A DNA stretch of 41,734 nucleotides from Spirochaetota bacterium (GTDB lineage: Bacteria; Spirochaetota; UBA4802; UBA5550): contig QKCL01000084.1 of the NCBI GenBank assembly GCA_003246895.1, positions 1 to 41,734 on the forward strand, in the 5' to 3' direction. The stretch's first letter is position 1; each line of letters begins with the position of its first letter. A program made the position numbers and the translations under genes. The notes below the pieces were generated by a model that saw only the letters and a list, made by a program, of their open reading frames with translations, ran no database searches and was not told the origin of the DNA. Shown in pieces: positions 12,712 to 40,708 of this stretch.

Positions 12712-13371
12712 TCAGCGTCGTTTTGCATCCCAGATATGTTTTTCGCCAAGGTCGTTTCTGAAGAAACCATCAATTTTTTTCCCATTATTGTTGTATTCCC
12801 CAGAAAATTTCTGAGTAAAGAAACGGTTTGCGCCAAGACGGGTCATTTCCTTAGCGGTATTTGCAGATCTGACGAAAAATATTCTGCCATTTTTTATTGA
12901 TAATGACTTGAGATATTCATATGCACCCTTTCCCCAGGAAGGGAATTTTACATATCCATATAATTTATTATCCTTTATATAAAGCATGAGAGTACCACGG
13001 TGCCCCTGTACTGTTATTGTATATTTACCCAGGTATTTTTTGTTTGTATTGAGATCAGCATCTGGAATATTATCTTTAAAAGTTATACTCTGAATAGTGT
13101 CCAATGATGAAACTGCAAATGAATACTCTATATCGTCAGGAATAAAGTTGCCTGTTTTTTTACCGGATATGGTTTCTGAAGAAAAAGAAATCATGGAGTT
13201 GCCGATTACAAGAATTTTCTTTGCATAAAAATATTTTCCATCCGATTTCCTTACTAACGCATATTTATCGGCAGTGAAGAGATGCAGGCAAATGGGAAGG
13301 ATAATTAAAAGCGTGGCAACATAAAGTGCTGCATTTTTTTTTTGAGGTATTAAAGATTTCAGCTTTTTCAT
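12712..13371 (-). CDS. Membrane-anchored protein of unknown function
   Basis: This 219-residue protein has a basic N-terminus and one hydrophobic helix at about residues 15-33, which should act as an uncleaved anchor or signal. The remainder is rich in beta-type patterns and Gly/Tyr/Phe, with the paired lines GTLMLYIKDNKLYGYVKFPSWG and FSGEYNNNGKKIDGFF suggesting a beta-barrel or lipocalin-like fold facing the periplasm. I do not recognise a family. The ATG lacks a clear ribosome binding site. It converges on the hydrolase gene with a 5-base gap. Confidence 0.65.
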   Translation of the reverse strand: MKKLKSLIPQKKNAALYVATLLIILPICLHLFTADKYALVRKSDGKYFYAKKILVIGNSMISFSSETISGKKTGNFIPDDIEYSFAVSSLDTIQSITFKDNIPDADLNTNKKYLGKYTITVQGHRGTLMLYIKDNKLYGYVKFPSWGKGAYEYLKSLSIKNGRIFFVRSANTAKEMTRLGANRFFTQKFSGEYNNNGKKIDGFFRNDLGEKHIWDAKRR

Positions 13372-13463
13372 AACAATAATATATATTGAAGATTTTTTTT
13401 GTCCATATATTATTGTTATGAAGGTAAAACTTTATTAATAGAAGAATGCGTATTATAAAGGGG

Positions 13464-13817
13464 TTATTTTCCCTTTACACTAACATTGTCCATTTTCAGC
13501 ACAATAGTTTCAAGAGCCTTAAATGATGCAGATTGCCATGAAGAACTTCTGTTGTAAAAAATTTCGGTCTTTGTACTGCTTTCATTAAGTTTTTTTGCCA
13601 TGTGAATAATTGGAGGCACCGTGGATGAATTCATATATTCAAGAGGTGAAAAATCAACCTCAAGTTTACCGCCCTTTATTCCGTCTATGACTTCATCAAG
13701 GTAGGGTTTAAGAGTTGCTGATGGATCTCTGTCAATACTCTTTCCTTTCCATATAAGCCTGTTAAGATCTCCCGCCTCAAAACATATTTCCATGTTGTCA
13801 TTTTTGTAGTCTTTCAT
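13464..13817 (-). CDS. STAS-like regulator (slr1659 type)
   Basis: This 117-residue protein resembles single-domain STAS anti-sigma-antagonist-like regulators of the slr1659 type: LEVDFSPLEYMNSSTVPPII carries the Ser/Thr cluster (residues 64-66) where STAS switches are phosphorylated, followed by KTEIFYNRSSSWQSASFKALE. The ATG at 13817 is chosen because GGAG lies 7-8 bases upstream; a TTG at 13829 in the same frame would overlap that site. It is the last gene of an operon with an HATPase protein and a PP2C phosphatase, which would be its kinase-like partner and dephosphorylating enzyme. Confidence 0.8.
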   Translation of the reverse strand: MKDYKNDNMEICFEAGDLNRLIWKGKSIDRDPSATLKPYLDEVIDGIKGGKLEVDFSPLEYMNSSTVPPIIHMAKKLNESSTKTEIFYNRSSSWQSASFKALETIVLKMDNVSVKGK

Positions 13818-13841
13818 TGTATTCTCCAACTAATAATTAGA

Positions 13842-14318
13842 TTAAAATACCTTTTCAGCATTTATTTTAAGGACTTTTCCTTCATAAGCGTATCTAAGAT
13901 TAAACTGCCCTTCATAGGCAATGCGGTACAGGCCGAGTTGAGTTGCGCCTGGCCGGTCACATTCAAGCAGTTCAAGTAGACGTTGTGTATAAAGTTCCTT
14001 GGGGTTATCGGATTCATTGATCCTGGTTATATGATCAATGACTATCTTTGCGTGTTCTTCTTCTTTCACTCCATTTGCGGTGGACATCTGGATTGAATTA
14101 TCACTTATTTCAAGGTTAAACTCGATACTTGACCCGTCTGGTTGTGAAATCCCATATTTCACAGCATTTTCAATGAGCTCCGTTGCAACCATCATGGCAG
14201 ACTCTTTAACATCTGCGGATGCACCCTGGTCATTCATTACTCTAATGGTTTTATCATGTACATCTTTCACAATATCCCAGGTTGGCTTTATTGTAAGGTT
14301 CATATTAAAATTGTTCAT
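13842..14318 (-). CDS. GHKL-type ATP-binding protein (slr1658 type switch partner)
   Basis: This 158-residue protein has a GHKL N-box ELIENAVKYG (residues 47-56) and a late GATQLGLYRI that could serve as the lid glycine motif, but the usual DxGxG box is replaced by a SDNSIQMSTANG stretch. It matches the slr1658-type family found beside slr1659-type STAS proteins. By analogy with RsbW/SpoIIAB it may bind or phosphorylate the STAS partner. It starts 7 bases before the end of the phosphatase gene's downstream spacer and 24 bases precede the STAS gene, a tight operon. Whether it is an active kinase is uncertain. Confidence 0.75.
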   Translation of the reverse strand: MNNFNMNLTIKPTWDIVKDVHDKTIRVMNDQGASADVKESAMMVATELIENAVKYGISQPDGSSIEFNLEISDNSIQMSTANGVKEEEHAKIVIDHITRINESDNPKELYTQRLLELLECDRPGATQLGLYRIAYEGQFNLRYAYEGKVLKINAEKVF

Positions 14319-14325
14319 GTGAAAA

Positions 14326-15558
14326 TTATCCTTTATAATCTATTATAATAAAAGTCATATCATCGAAAGCGGGCTGGCCGTTTCTGAAATTTTTTATATC
14401 ATCAACAATGATATTTTTTAATTCAAGGAGATCATTCTTCTGGTTTGCCATTACTATGGCTTCAAGCTTTTCAACATCATAGCCCTCTCCGTTTTCATTG
14501 AACTGGTCATGAAGCCCGTCGGAGCAGAGTATTATTCGGTCTCCGCCCTTCAGTTTCAGTACATCGCTATTTACATCAATTTCAGGCTCAAGTCCGATTG
14601 GAATATTGAAATTCTGGTTTTTAATTTTATGAAATCTGCCTTCCCTTACAAGGTAAAGGTTTCCCTCTGCCATACAGTGGCCAAGATCAATAATTTTAAG
14701 TTTATCCTCATTTCCATTAAGGCTGAGAATAGCAGAAGTAATATACTTATCCATTTTAAATGTATTGTATATATAGCGATTCATTTTCTTTAAGAATTTC
14801 TTCATGCCGTCCTTGATGTTAAGGGTATCGAACATTCCTCCTATAATACCGGTAACGATTGCCGCGGAGATACCTTTACCGGAAACATCACAGAGCACAA
14901 ACAGGCATCTGTTTGAATCATACTTAAACATGTTGTAGTAATCTCCTCCAATGCCCTGAGCCATTTTGGAGTAACCCACAGCACTGAACTTTTCATCTTC
15001 AACAAGCATTGAATTTTTTATGATGTTAAACTGAATTTTTTCAGCCATTTCCATCTCTTTCTGTGTTATGGAGGAGAGGAAAACCAGCATATCCTTTGAA
15101 GAAAAAATTCCGTAAAAGGAGCCGTTATCATTTTTCAGTATGTAATAAAGATTAGAACTTGCGCTCAGTTCATTTTCAATTTTGGTTGCTACTGAGAATA
15201 TATTTTTATTCTTTTTAAAATCGCGGGCGTTTGTCATCATGGAGGAAATCTTGTGTTTTTTGTATAGATCTCTTCCAAAACGGGTTCCCAGTTTGTCAAA
15301 AAAATCCCGTTTCGTTACAATTCCCATGCATTTGCCATTGTCGTCTGTTACACCCAGTATGAATATTTCGGGGTGCTTTTCCATATGGATTGCAATATCA
15401 TCAACGAGGGTATTTTCATTTGTGTAGTGAAAGCTGCTTGCCAGGCTTCCTATGAGGTCCCCTGAAATCTGAATTTTTTCACCTTCAACAATTATATCTG
15501 TTATGGCTGGGGTATTTTCTCCGGGCATTTCCTCTGTTATTGATATATCATGATTCAT
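14326..15558 (-). CDS. CBS-domain PP2C (SpoIIE/RsbU-type) phosphatase
   Basis: This 410-residue cytoplasmic protein joins a CBS pair (about residues 34-165; IMGIVTKRDFF-like and YGIFSSKDML edges) to a PPM/SpoIIE serine phosphatase domain (about 170-408). Metal-binding motifs are intact: GGDYY (204-208), CDVSGKG with Asp224, CSDGL (345-349) and FDDMT (398-402). The linker helix TQKEMEMAEKIQ is the type that transmits signals in RsbU-like enzymes. The CBS part probably senses an adenine nucleotide or similar. First gene of the operon with the HATPase and STAS proteins; it likely dephosphorylates the STAS partner. Confidence 0.9.
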   Translation of the reverse strand: MNHDISITEEMPGENTPAITDIIVEGEKIQISGDLIGSLASSFHYTNENTLVDDIAIHMEKHPEIFILGVTDDNGKCMGIVTKRDFFDKLGTRFGRDLYKKHKISSMMTNARDFKKNKNIFSVATKIENELSASSNLYYILKNDNGSFYGIFSSKDMLVFLSSITQKEMEMAEKIQFNIIKNSMLVEDEKFSAVGYSKMAQGIGGDYYNMFKYDSNRCLFVLCDVSGKGISAAIVTGIIGGMFDTLNIKDGMKKFLKKMNRYIYNTFKMDKYITSAILSLNGNEDKLKIIDLGHCMAEGNLYLVREGRFHKIKNQNFNIPIGLEPEIDVNSDVLKLKGGDRIILCSDGLHDQFNENGEGYDVEKLEAIVMANQKNDLLELKNIIVDDIKNFRNGQPAFDDMTFIIIDYKG

Positions 15559-40393: not shown

Positions 40394-40708
40394 ATGACTG
40401 ATAAAAGAAAGTCAGAGAGAGTGAACAGAAACATTAAATCAGAAGTATCAACAAATGATCATTTAACATTCAGTTCATCGGTAGATGTCAGCAAAGGTGG
40501 TGTTTTTATATCAACACCGGATCCTCTCGCAAACGGTTCAGAAGTAACTTTGTCGATAAAGCTCTCTTCTGATGAGGAACTGGAAGTAAAAGGAATTGTT
40601 AAATGGGTTCGTGCTAATGAGTCAGACAGCGGAAGAGCAGGAATGGGAATTGAATTTACTGACCTCGATTCTGAAAAAGAGGAAAAGATAAATAAAATTA
40701 TCAAGTAG
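40394..40708 (+). CDS. PilZ-domain protein, probable c-di-GMP receptor
   Basis: This 104-residue protein is a single PilZ domain. The c-di-GMP-binding RxxxR lies at Arg5-Arg9 (RKSER) and the DxSxxG motif is DVSKGG; GIVKWVRANE and MGIEFTDLD complete the fold. It could tune motility or envelope traits in response to c-di-GMP by contacting a partner. GAGG lies 9 bases before the ATG. No cyclase or phosphodiesterase is adjacent. Confidence 0.88.
   Translation: MTDKRKSERVNRNIKSEVSTNDHLTFSSSVDVSKGGVFISTPDPLANGSEVTLSIKLSSDEELEVKGIVKWVRANESDSGRAGMGIEFTDLDSEKEEKINKIIK

Follow-up and report, generated by a model that had tools for sequence, protein, structure and literature searches.

What does the compact three-gene cluster in this piece of Spirochaetota DNA sense, and what does it switch? 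The window, by which we mean the whole stretch of 41,734 nucleotides that was analysed, lies on contig C25 of a 3.57-Mb genome in 95 contigs. The initial annotation read the cluster as a partner-switching operon of a CBS-PP2C phosphatase, an ATP-binding GHKL protein and a STAS-like protein. The ORF list and profile searches bear out both the trio and its anatomy: the three minus-strand genes follow each other in this order as a tight operon, with the corresponding profile matches and motifs (Table 1). Phosphatase and GHKL genes are separated by 7 nt, and the ribosome-binding site of the GHKL gene lies just beyond the phosphatase stop. The TTG from which the STAS ORF was called sits within GTTGGAG, a Shine-Dalgarno-like sequence for the ATG at 13817. 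We prefer this ATG since GTTGGAG reads as its ribosome-binding site and STAS homologues begin near it in the alignment; the STAS protein is thus probably 117 aa long and the gap to the GHKL gene 24 nt.

Table 1. Features of the three-gene cluster, in coordinates of the window.
Feature	Coordinates	Strand	Details
CBS-PP2C (SpoIIE-type) phosphatase	14326..15558	-	410 aa, first gene; Pfam SpoIIE 1.2e-30, CBS 5.6e-8
CBS pair, phosphatase residues 28-165	15064..15477	-	GIVTKRD (79-85), GIFSSKD (150-156)
PP2C catalytic domain, phosphatase residues 199-410	14326..14964	-	D206, D224, D347, D399, D400 each 21/21
GHKL protein, SiaB-like putative STAS kinase	13842..14318	-	158 aa; profile matches and AlphaFold model
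GHKL N-box ELIENAVKY, residues 47-55	14154..14180	-	5 residues invariant in 23 sequences
STAS protein, SiaC-like (probable start)	13464..13817	-	117 aa from ATG 13817
STAS ORF as called	13464..13829	-	121 aa from TTG 13829
Predicted phospho-acceptor Ser of STAS	13626..13628	-	S68 (121-aa numbering) = S64 from ATG; site of SiaC Thr68

The SpoIIE and CBS matches of the phosphatase both exceed the curated Pfam cut-offs. Its catalytic motifs are complete, as had been noted (GGD, DVSGKG, SDG and DDM), and the five metal-binding aspartates are invariant in all 21 aligned CBS-PP2C proteins. Both CBS halves carry the sequence G-h-x-S/T-x-x-D, a motif which in CBS domains contacts the ribose of adenine nucleotides. 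In the CBS-PP2C alignment G79 is found in 21/21 proteins, G150 and S153 in 20/21 each and D156 in 19/21, so that the second motif is kept across the family; the Thr of the first is variable. On this motif reading only, the CBS pair of the phosphatase would bind a ligand.

The GHKL protein matches the NCBIfam profile slr1658_superfam (3.3e-13, 49.5 bits, cut-off 100) and Pfam DUF6272 (PF19788; 24.1 bits, below the cut-off of 26.6), and DUF6272 is also hit by 16 of the 23 GHKL relatives (E <= 0.01). The N-box claimed for it is present, with E47, E50, N51, K54 and Y55 invariant in 23 sequences, as are the later residues G129, R132, Y135 and E136. The AlphaFold2 model (pLDDT 90.6) has a SiaB-type GHKL kinase fold: VIA-align ranks SiaB (6kko_B) first with Z 16.3 and an rmsd of 2.5 over 141 aligned residues, a lead of 1.2 Z over SpoIIAB, which comes second (Z 15.1).

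The STAS protein matches slr1659_superfam (1.4e-4, 22.1 bits, cut-off 100) and Pfam SiaC (PF09345; E 0.0014, 18.7 bits, below the cut-off of 24.5); the latter profile also matches 13 of the 22 STAS relatives at E <= 0.01. Searched against PDB sequences, the protein alone returned no relative, and the family profile gave TM1442 as best match; in the PDB comparison the likeness to SiaC emerges by fold only. With the AlphaFold2 model (pLDDT 93.2), the SiaC chain 6kko_D is the top VIA-align match (Z 14.1), and four SiaC entries lead (6kko_D, 6k4f, 6kkp and 7e6g_D, Z 14.1-13.4), the next family reaching 11.6. The reported Ser/Ser/Thr cluster is the motif NSST, whose two serines are invariant in 22 of 22 STAS proteins and occupy the place of T68 and S69 in the acceptor stretch N67/T68/S69 described for SiaC (PMC8457831). 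Model and alignment together thus give this protein the SiaC fold with an N-T/S-S acceptor motif.

The known system closest in layout is SiaA/SiaB/SiaC/SiaD of Pseudomonas aeruginosa, a switch in biofilm signalling. Both loci have the order PP2C, GHKL kinase, STAS-like protein (siaA-siaB-siaC), SiaB and SiaC are the best structural matches of the window proteins by VIA-align, and an N-(S/T)-S phospho-acceptor site is common to SiaC and our STAS protein. In contrast to the CBS-type phosphatase of the window, SiaA is a predicted membrane protein (PMC7278518), and the Sia operon includes the cyclase SiaD, whereas the window holds no SiaD gene. The initial annotation had likened the cluster to the cyanobacterial slr1658/slr1659 pair. 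That superfamily (NF047703, NF047705) does supply the best NCBIfam matches of both proteins, but neither reaches its cut-off, and the closest structures are SiaB and SiaC, which are not cyanobacterial. Because the cut-offs for SiaC and DUF6272 are also missed and a linked SiaD is absent, we describe the trio as SiaABC-like and file it neither as a member of SiaABC nor of slr1658/slr1659. HsbR-HsbA-HsbD and BgrU/V/W-BgrR, also STAS switches acting on a diguanylate cyclase, are likened here by their description in PMC7647112 alone. The unusual feature is the CBS-type phosphatase on a SiaABC-like pair. We found no account of a CBS-PP2C/GHKL/STAS trio in open-licence PMC literature, and nothing there on CBS with SpoIIE or on spirochete partner switching with c-di-GMP.

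SiaC activates SiaD unless it is phosphorylated by SiaB (PMC7278518), and it does so by binding the SiaD stalk (PMC8457831). On balance we lean slightly towards a SiaABC-like switch in which a ligand gates the removal of phosphate from the STAS protein, and this dephosphorylation in turn controls a c-di-GMP enzyme whose gene lies elsewhere. Gene content, motifs, the layout of the operon, the folds as predicted and the counts of neighbouring genes are observations; from these we infer the biochemistry at each step, the identity of ligand and target and the direction of control, as follows. The GHKL protein would phosphorylate the STAS protein at the first Ser of NSST and keep it phosphorylated. 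The CBS-PP2C phosphatase would remove this phosphate at a rate set by the ligand of the CBS pair, most likely an adenine nucleotide, with the signal travelling along the helix between CBS and PP2C. For RsbU, signal transfer from a dimeric sensor to PP2C by way of a helical linker has been demonstrated, and this route has been proposed to be general (PMC12143880); the available part of that linker account makes no mention of CBS. Unphosphorylated STAS protein would then leave the kinase and bind the helical stalk of its target, most likely a diguanylate cyclase or an HD-GYP phosphodiesterase.

Gene neighbours in related loci bear on the nature of this target. GHKL matches were found in 15 of 58 relatives, own genome aside, and the closest GHKL relatives among named records are Spirochaetota. 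We compared 79 named GHKL loci from Spirochaetota, Myxococcota, Thermodesulfobacteriota and other phyla, and counted same-strand genes beside the pair in 89 loci, the window among them. STAS adjoins GHKL in 82 of the 89, a recurrence which argues that the pairing is not due to chance. A PP2C gene lies directly beside the pair in 11 loci (the window and ten others with a different PP2C) and somewhat further away in 6; a methyltransferase-like gene followed by PP2C is found in 17, a GGDEF or HD-GYP gene in 8 and an MCP gene in 3. Under the labelling rule used, 44/89 loci have no PP2C, c-di-GMP enzyme, methyltransferase or MCP gene beside the pair. Given these 44 loci and those with methyltransferase-like or MCP genes, outputs of GHKL-STAS pairs vary.

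Taken together, same-strand GGDEF, HD-GYP or PilZ genes stand beside the pair in 13/89 loci. The arrangements include GGDEF-PilZ-GHKL-STAS in L073, with L072 alike up to a contig end that cuts STAS; PilZ-GHKL-STAS-GGDEF in L131 and L132; GHKL-STAS-HD-GYP in L121 and L063; GHKL-STAS-GGDEF/HD-GYP in L127; and GHKL-GGDEF in L134. Two lineages (L072/L073 and L131/L132) thus hold cyclase, PilZ, kinase and STAS together. PilZ genes, sought with a profile built from three sequences, lie directly upstream of GHKL in seven loci (L067, L072, L073, L120, L122, L131 and L132), directly 3' of STAS in L070, and convergent just past STAS in L066 and L068. Seven of 18 PilZ matches fall within 4 kb of a GHKL match against 0.05 expected under random placement; one of the seven is the query's own locus, picked for its adjacency, so that 6/17 is the fair figure, and G012 and G017-G019 represent one genus; the P value calculated for this adjacency is accordingly too low. 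In a quick tree of 82 loci the window groups with L067, L073, L079, L075/L077 and L065-L069 (SH-aLRT 90, not starred), its nearest row being the PilZ-GHKL-STAS locus L067 at 47% identity. Loci L067, L073, L131 and L050 have GHKL and STAS families as in the window, but PilZ where the window has its phosphatase, and no CBS-PP2C. These neighbours and the analogy to SiaC-SiaD favour c-di-GMP signalling over a sigma factor as the target.

One member of the window's GHKL family, in L050 (7846-8718), carries a PilZ domain at its N-terminus, a fusion which would place a c-di-GMP receptor and a partner-switch kinase in one protein. PilZ neighbours and this fusion raise the question whether c-di-GMP controls a partner-switch kinase, and in open-licence PMC literature on partner switches we found no PilZ link. 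A wider reading, which we offer tentatively and with some doubt, is that GHKL-STAS pairs form a large, apparently undescribed family of c-di-GMP-wired switches, in which PilZ would feed the c-di-GMP level back to the kinase and cyclases or HD-GYP proteins would be the outputs; in the lineage of the window the CBS-PP2C would be the input instead, and adenylate energy charge would set the switch. If the SiaABC-like reading is true, spirochaetes would also use the SiaABC logic, which has until now been studied in Pseudomonas, and a nucleotide-type sensor would tie the energy state of the cell to c-di-GMP. The most interesting outcome of this comparison, the c-di-GMP wiring of related pairs, lies outside the coordinates of the trio itself.

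Searches with local profiles found no GGDEF, HD-GYP, MCP or methyltransferase domain in the window, in agreement with the earlier statement that no target is encoded nearby. The genome has 34 GGDEF domains, all possible targets, and 16 SpoIIE-type domains, 15 of them besides the phosphatase studied here. We attempted to name a target through own-genome homologues of proteins linked to related loci and dropped the attempt. The N-terminus of the L073 cyclase has no close homologue there (best E 0.09), an EAL-CBS-GGDEF protein has none at 1e-30, the linked PilZ subfamily has no match at 1e-6, and a family of 408-aa helical proteins is absent. No target could thus be named.

The pair could act on a helical target of another kind: a soluble protein resembling MCPs, one resembling methyltransferases, or the helical protein of 408 aa that follows STAS in L075 and L077. 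This is consistent with the MCP signalling-domain genes directly 3' of STAS in L116 (3261-4364), L125 (4223-5269) and L140 (8872-10044) and with the 17 methyltransferase-type loci. We consider it unlikely for the window, given that the 408-aa family is missing from this genome and that the methyltransferase and MCP labels represent one tree change each, on branches apart from the window. The methyltransferase-type loci (L054, L055, L056, L059, L092, L094, L096-L102, L104, L117, L124 and L136), from Spirochaetota and Myxococcota, have in a row GHKL, in most cases STAS, a methyltransferase-like 465-aa protein and PP2C; the 463-aa protein of this kind in L056 matches no NCBIfam family. A second GHKL match follows the MCP gene in L116 and L125.

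A classical RsbU-RsbW-RsbV switch, with the GHKL protein as anti-sigma factor, the STAS protein as its antagonist and transcription as output, has the fold and three-part logic of RsbU-RsbV-RsbW and SpoIIAA-SpoIIAB in common with the window trio. Foldseek E-values rank SpoIIAB and SpoIIAA first, with SiaB and SiaC also listed, and the genome has 10 matches to sigma-70 region 2. However, none of the ten lies on contig C25, which leaves the trio without the linked sigma factor of RsbUVW-type switches, and VIA-align puts SiaB and SiaC first, with Z of at most 11.6 for these STAS proteins against 14.1 for SiaC. Candidates for the canonical role are found elsewhere, with HATPase_c_2 and STAS on contig C11 and STAS near a sigma match on contig C79, and we regard a sigma-directed function of the trio as improbable. 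On C11 of G000, at about 16.5-20.7 kb, SpoIIE, HATPase_c_2 and STAS domains are clustered, the last two directly adjacent; on C79 of G000, at about 18.5-20.6 kb, a STAS domain and the sigma-70 region 2 match are about 1.5 kb apart. Both clusters are likely canonical switches.

Does the phosphatase belong with the pair at all? At least 18 of the 58 relatives have full-length CBS-PP2C homologues, and the own genome has 3 further copies, counting among the matches listed those that run from about residue 12-36 to 406-410 with no stop. The proteins of the 18 relatives share 39-28% identity across about 380 residues (CBS pair, linker and PP2C), and this full-length similarity places the window phosphatase in a Spirochaetota CBS-PP2C family. 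Among 20 CBS-PP2C regions of relatives taken for neighbourhood comparison, one, L176, has adjoining STAS and GHKL genes, of the general SpoIIAA/SpoIIAB kind; in two of those scanned, L188 and L192, an HATPase_c_2 protein adjoins. Conversely, a profile search found the CBS-PP2C N-terminus in 0 of 79 named GHKL loci. CBS input is therefore exceptional for the GHKL-STAS pair and ordinary for the phosphatases of the phylum, so that its description as unusual holds for the former only. Among the loci examined, the window alone joins a CBS-PP2C to a GHKL-STAS pair of this kind.

In another reading, a CBS-PP2C landed upstream of a GHKL-STAS pair that relies on a different phosphatase: in most relatives the CBS-PP2C adjoins other genes, and the closest GHKL-STAS relatives have no adjoining PP2C. 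The 7-nt gap and the position of the GHKL ribosome-binding site speak against this, as do the ten loci in which a different PP2C stands directly beside GHKL-STAS, and we give it little credence. The cognate, SiaABC-like arrangement remains our preferred reading.

EAL-CBS-GGDEF genes adjoin the CBS-PP2C in L174, L176, L178 and L180, and in L200 such a gene lies beside a CBS-PP2C with a frameshifted reading frame. For five of eight EAL-CBS-GGDEF genes a CBS-PP2C lies no more than 700 bp away; one of the five is the query's own, one is next to the frameshifted copy, and G036 and G027 represent one genus. Of the four EAL-CBS-GGDEF proteins in the 20 regions, two are matched by a profile built on 21 CBS-PP2C N-termini (9e-9 and 4e-8), as is that of L200 (1e-8). 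The idea that both proteins carry the same CBS module was dropped because the profile misses the other two of the four, and the similarity is treated as general CBS homology; that the two genes lie side by side stands on firmer ground.

The "altered" DxGxG motif claimed for the GHKL protein is there in so far as Asn N82 stands in place of the Asp, but it is not degenerate: in a profile alignment this Asn aligns with an Asn of chain 6kko_A, from the entry named SiaB-SiaC complex. A pseudo-kinase that merely sequesters the STAS protein, as the missing Asp might suggest, is very unlikely, since SiaB is a proven kinase that phosphorylates SiaC on Thr68 (PMC7278518) and has Asn at this place, which is therefore no argument against GHKL activity, and since the N-box is invariant in 23/23 sequences.

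The trio is flanked on one side by a divergent 875-aa ORF, which from its sequence we read as alaS, and on the other by a LIC20036-family gene (12712-13371; 75.1 bits against a cut-off of 250) on the trio's strand. A small PilZ-like ORF (E 3.5e-6 with the local profile) is found at 40394-40708 of the window, 25 kb from the trio. After the trio, at 13367-13422, two 18-nt arms form a perfect inverted repeat around a 20-nt loop; no other perfect inverted repeat in the window reaches 16 nt with a loop of about 40 nt or less. The 18-nt repeat may be a terminator or a regulator site, and the start codon of the LIC20036-family gene falls inside one of its arms.
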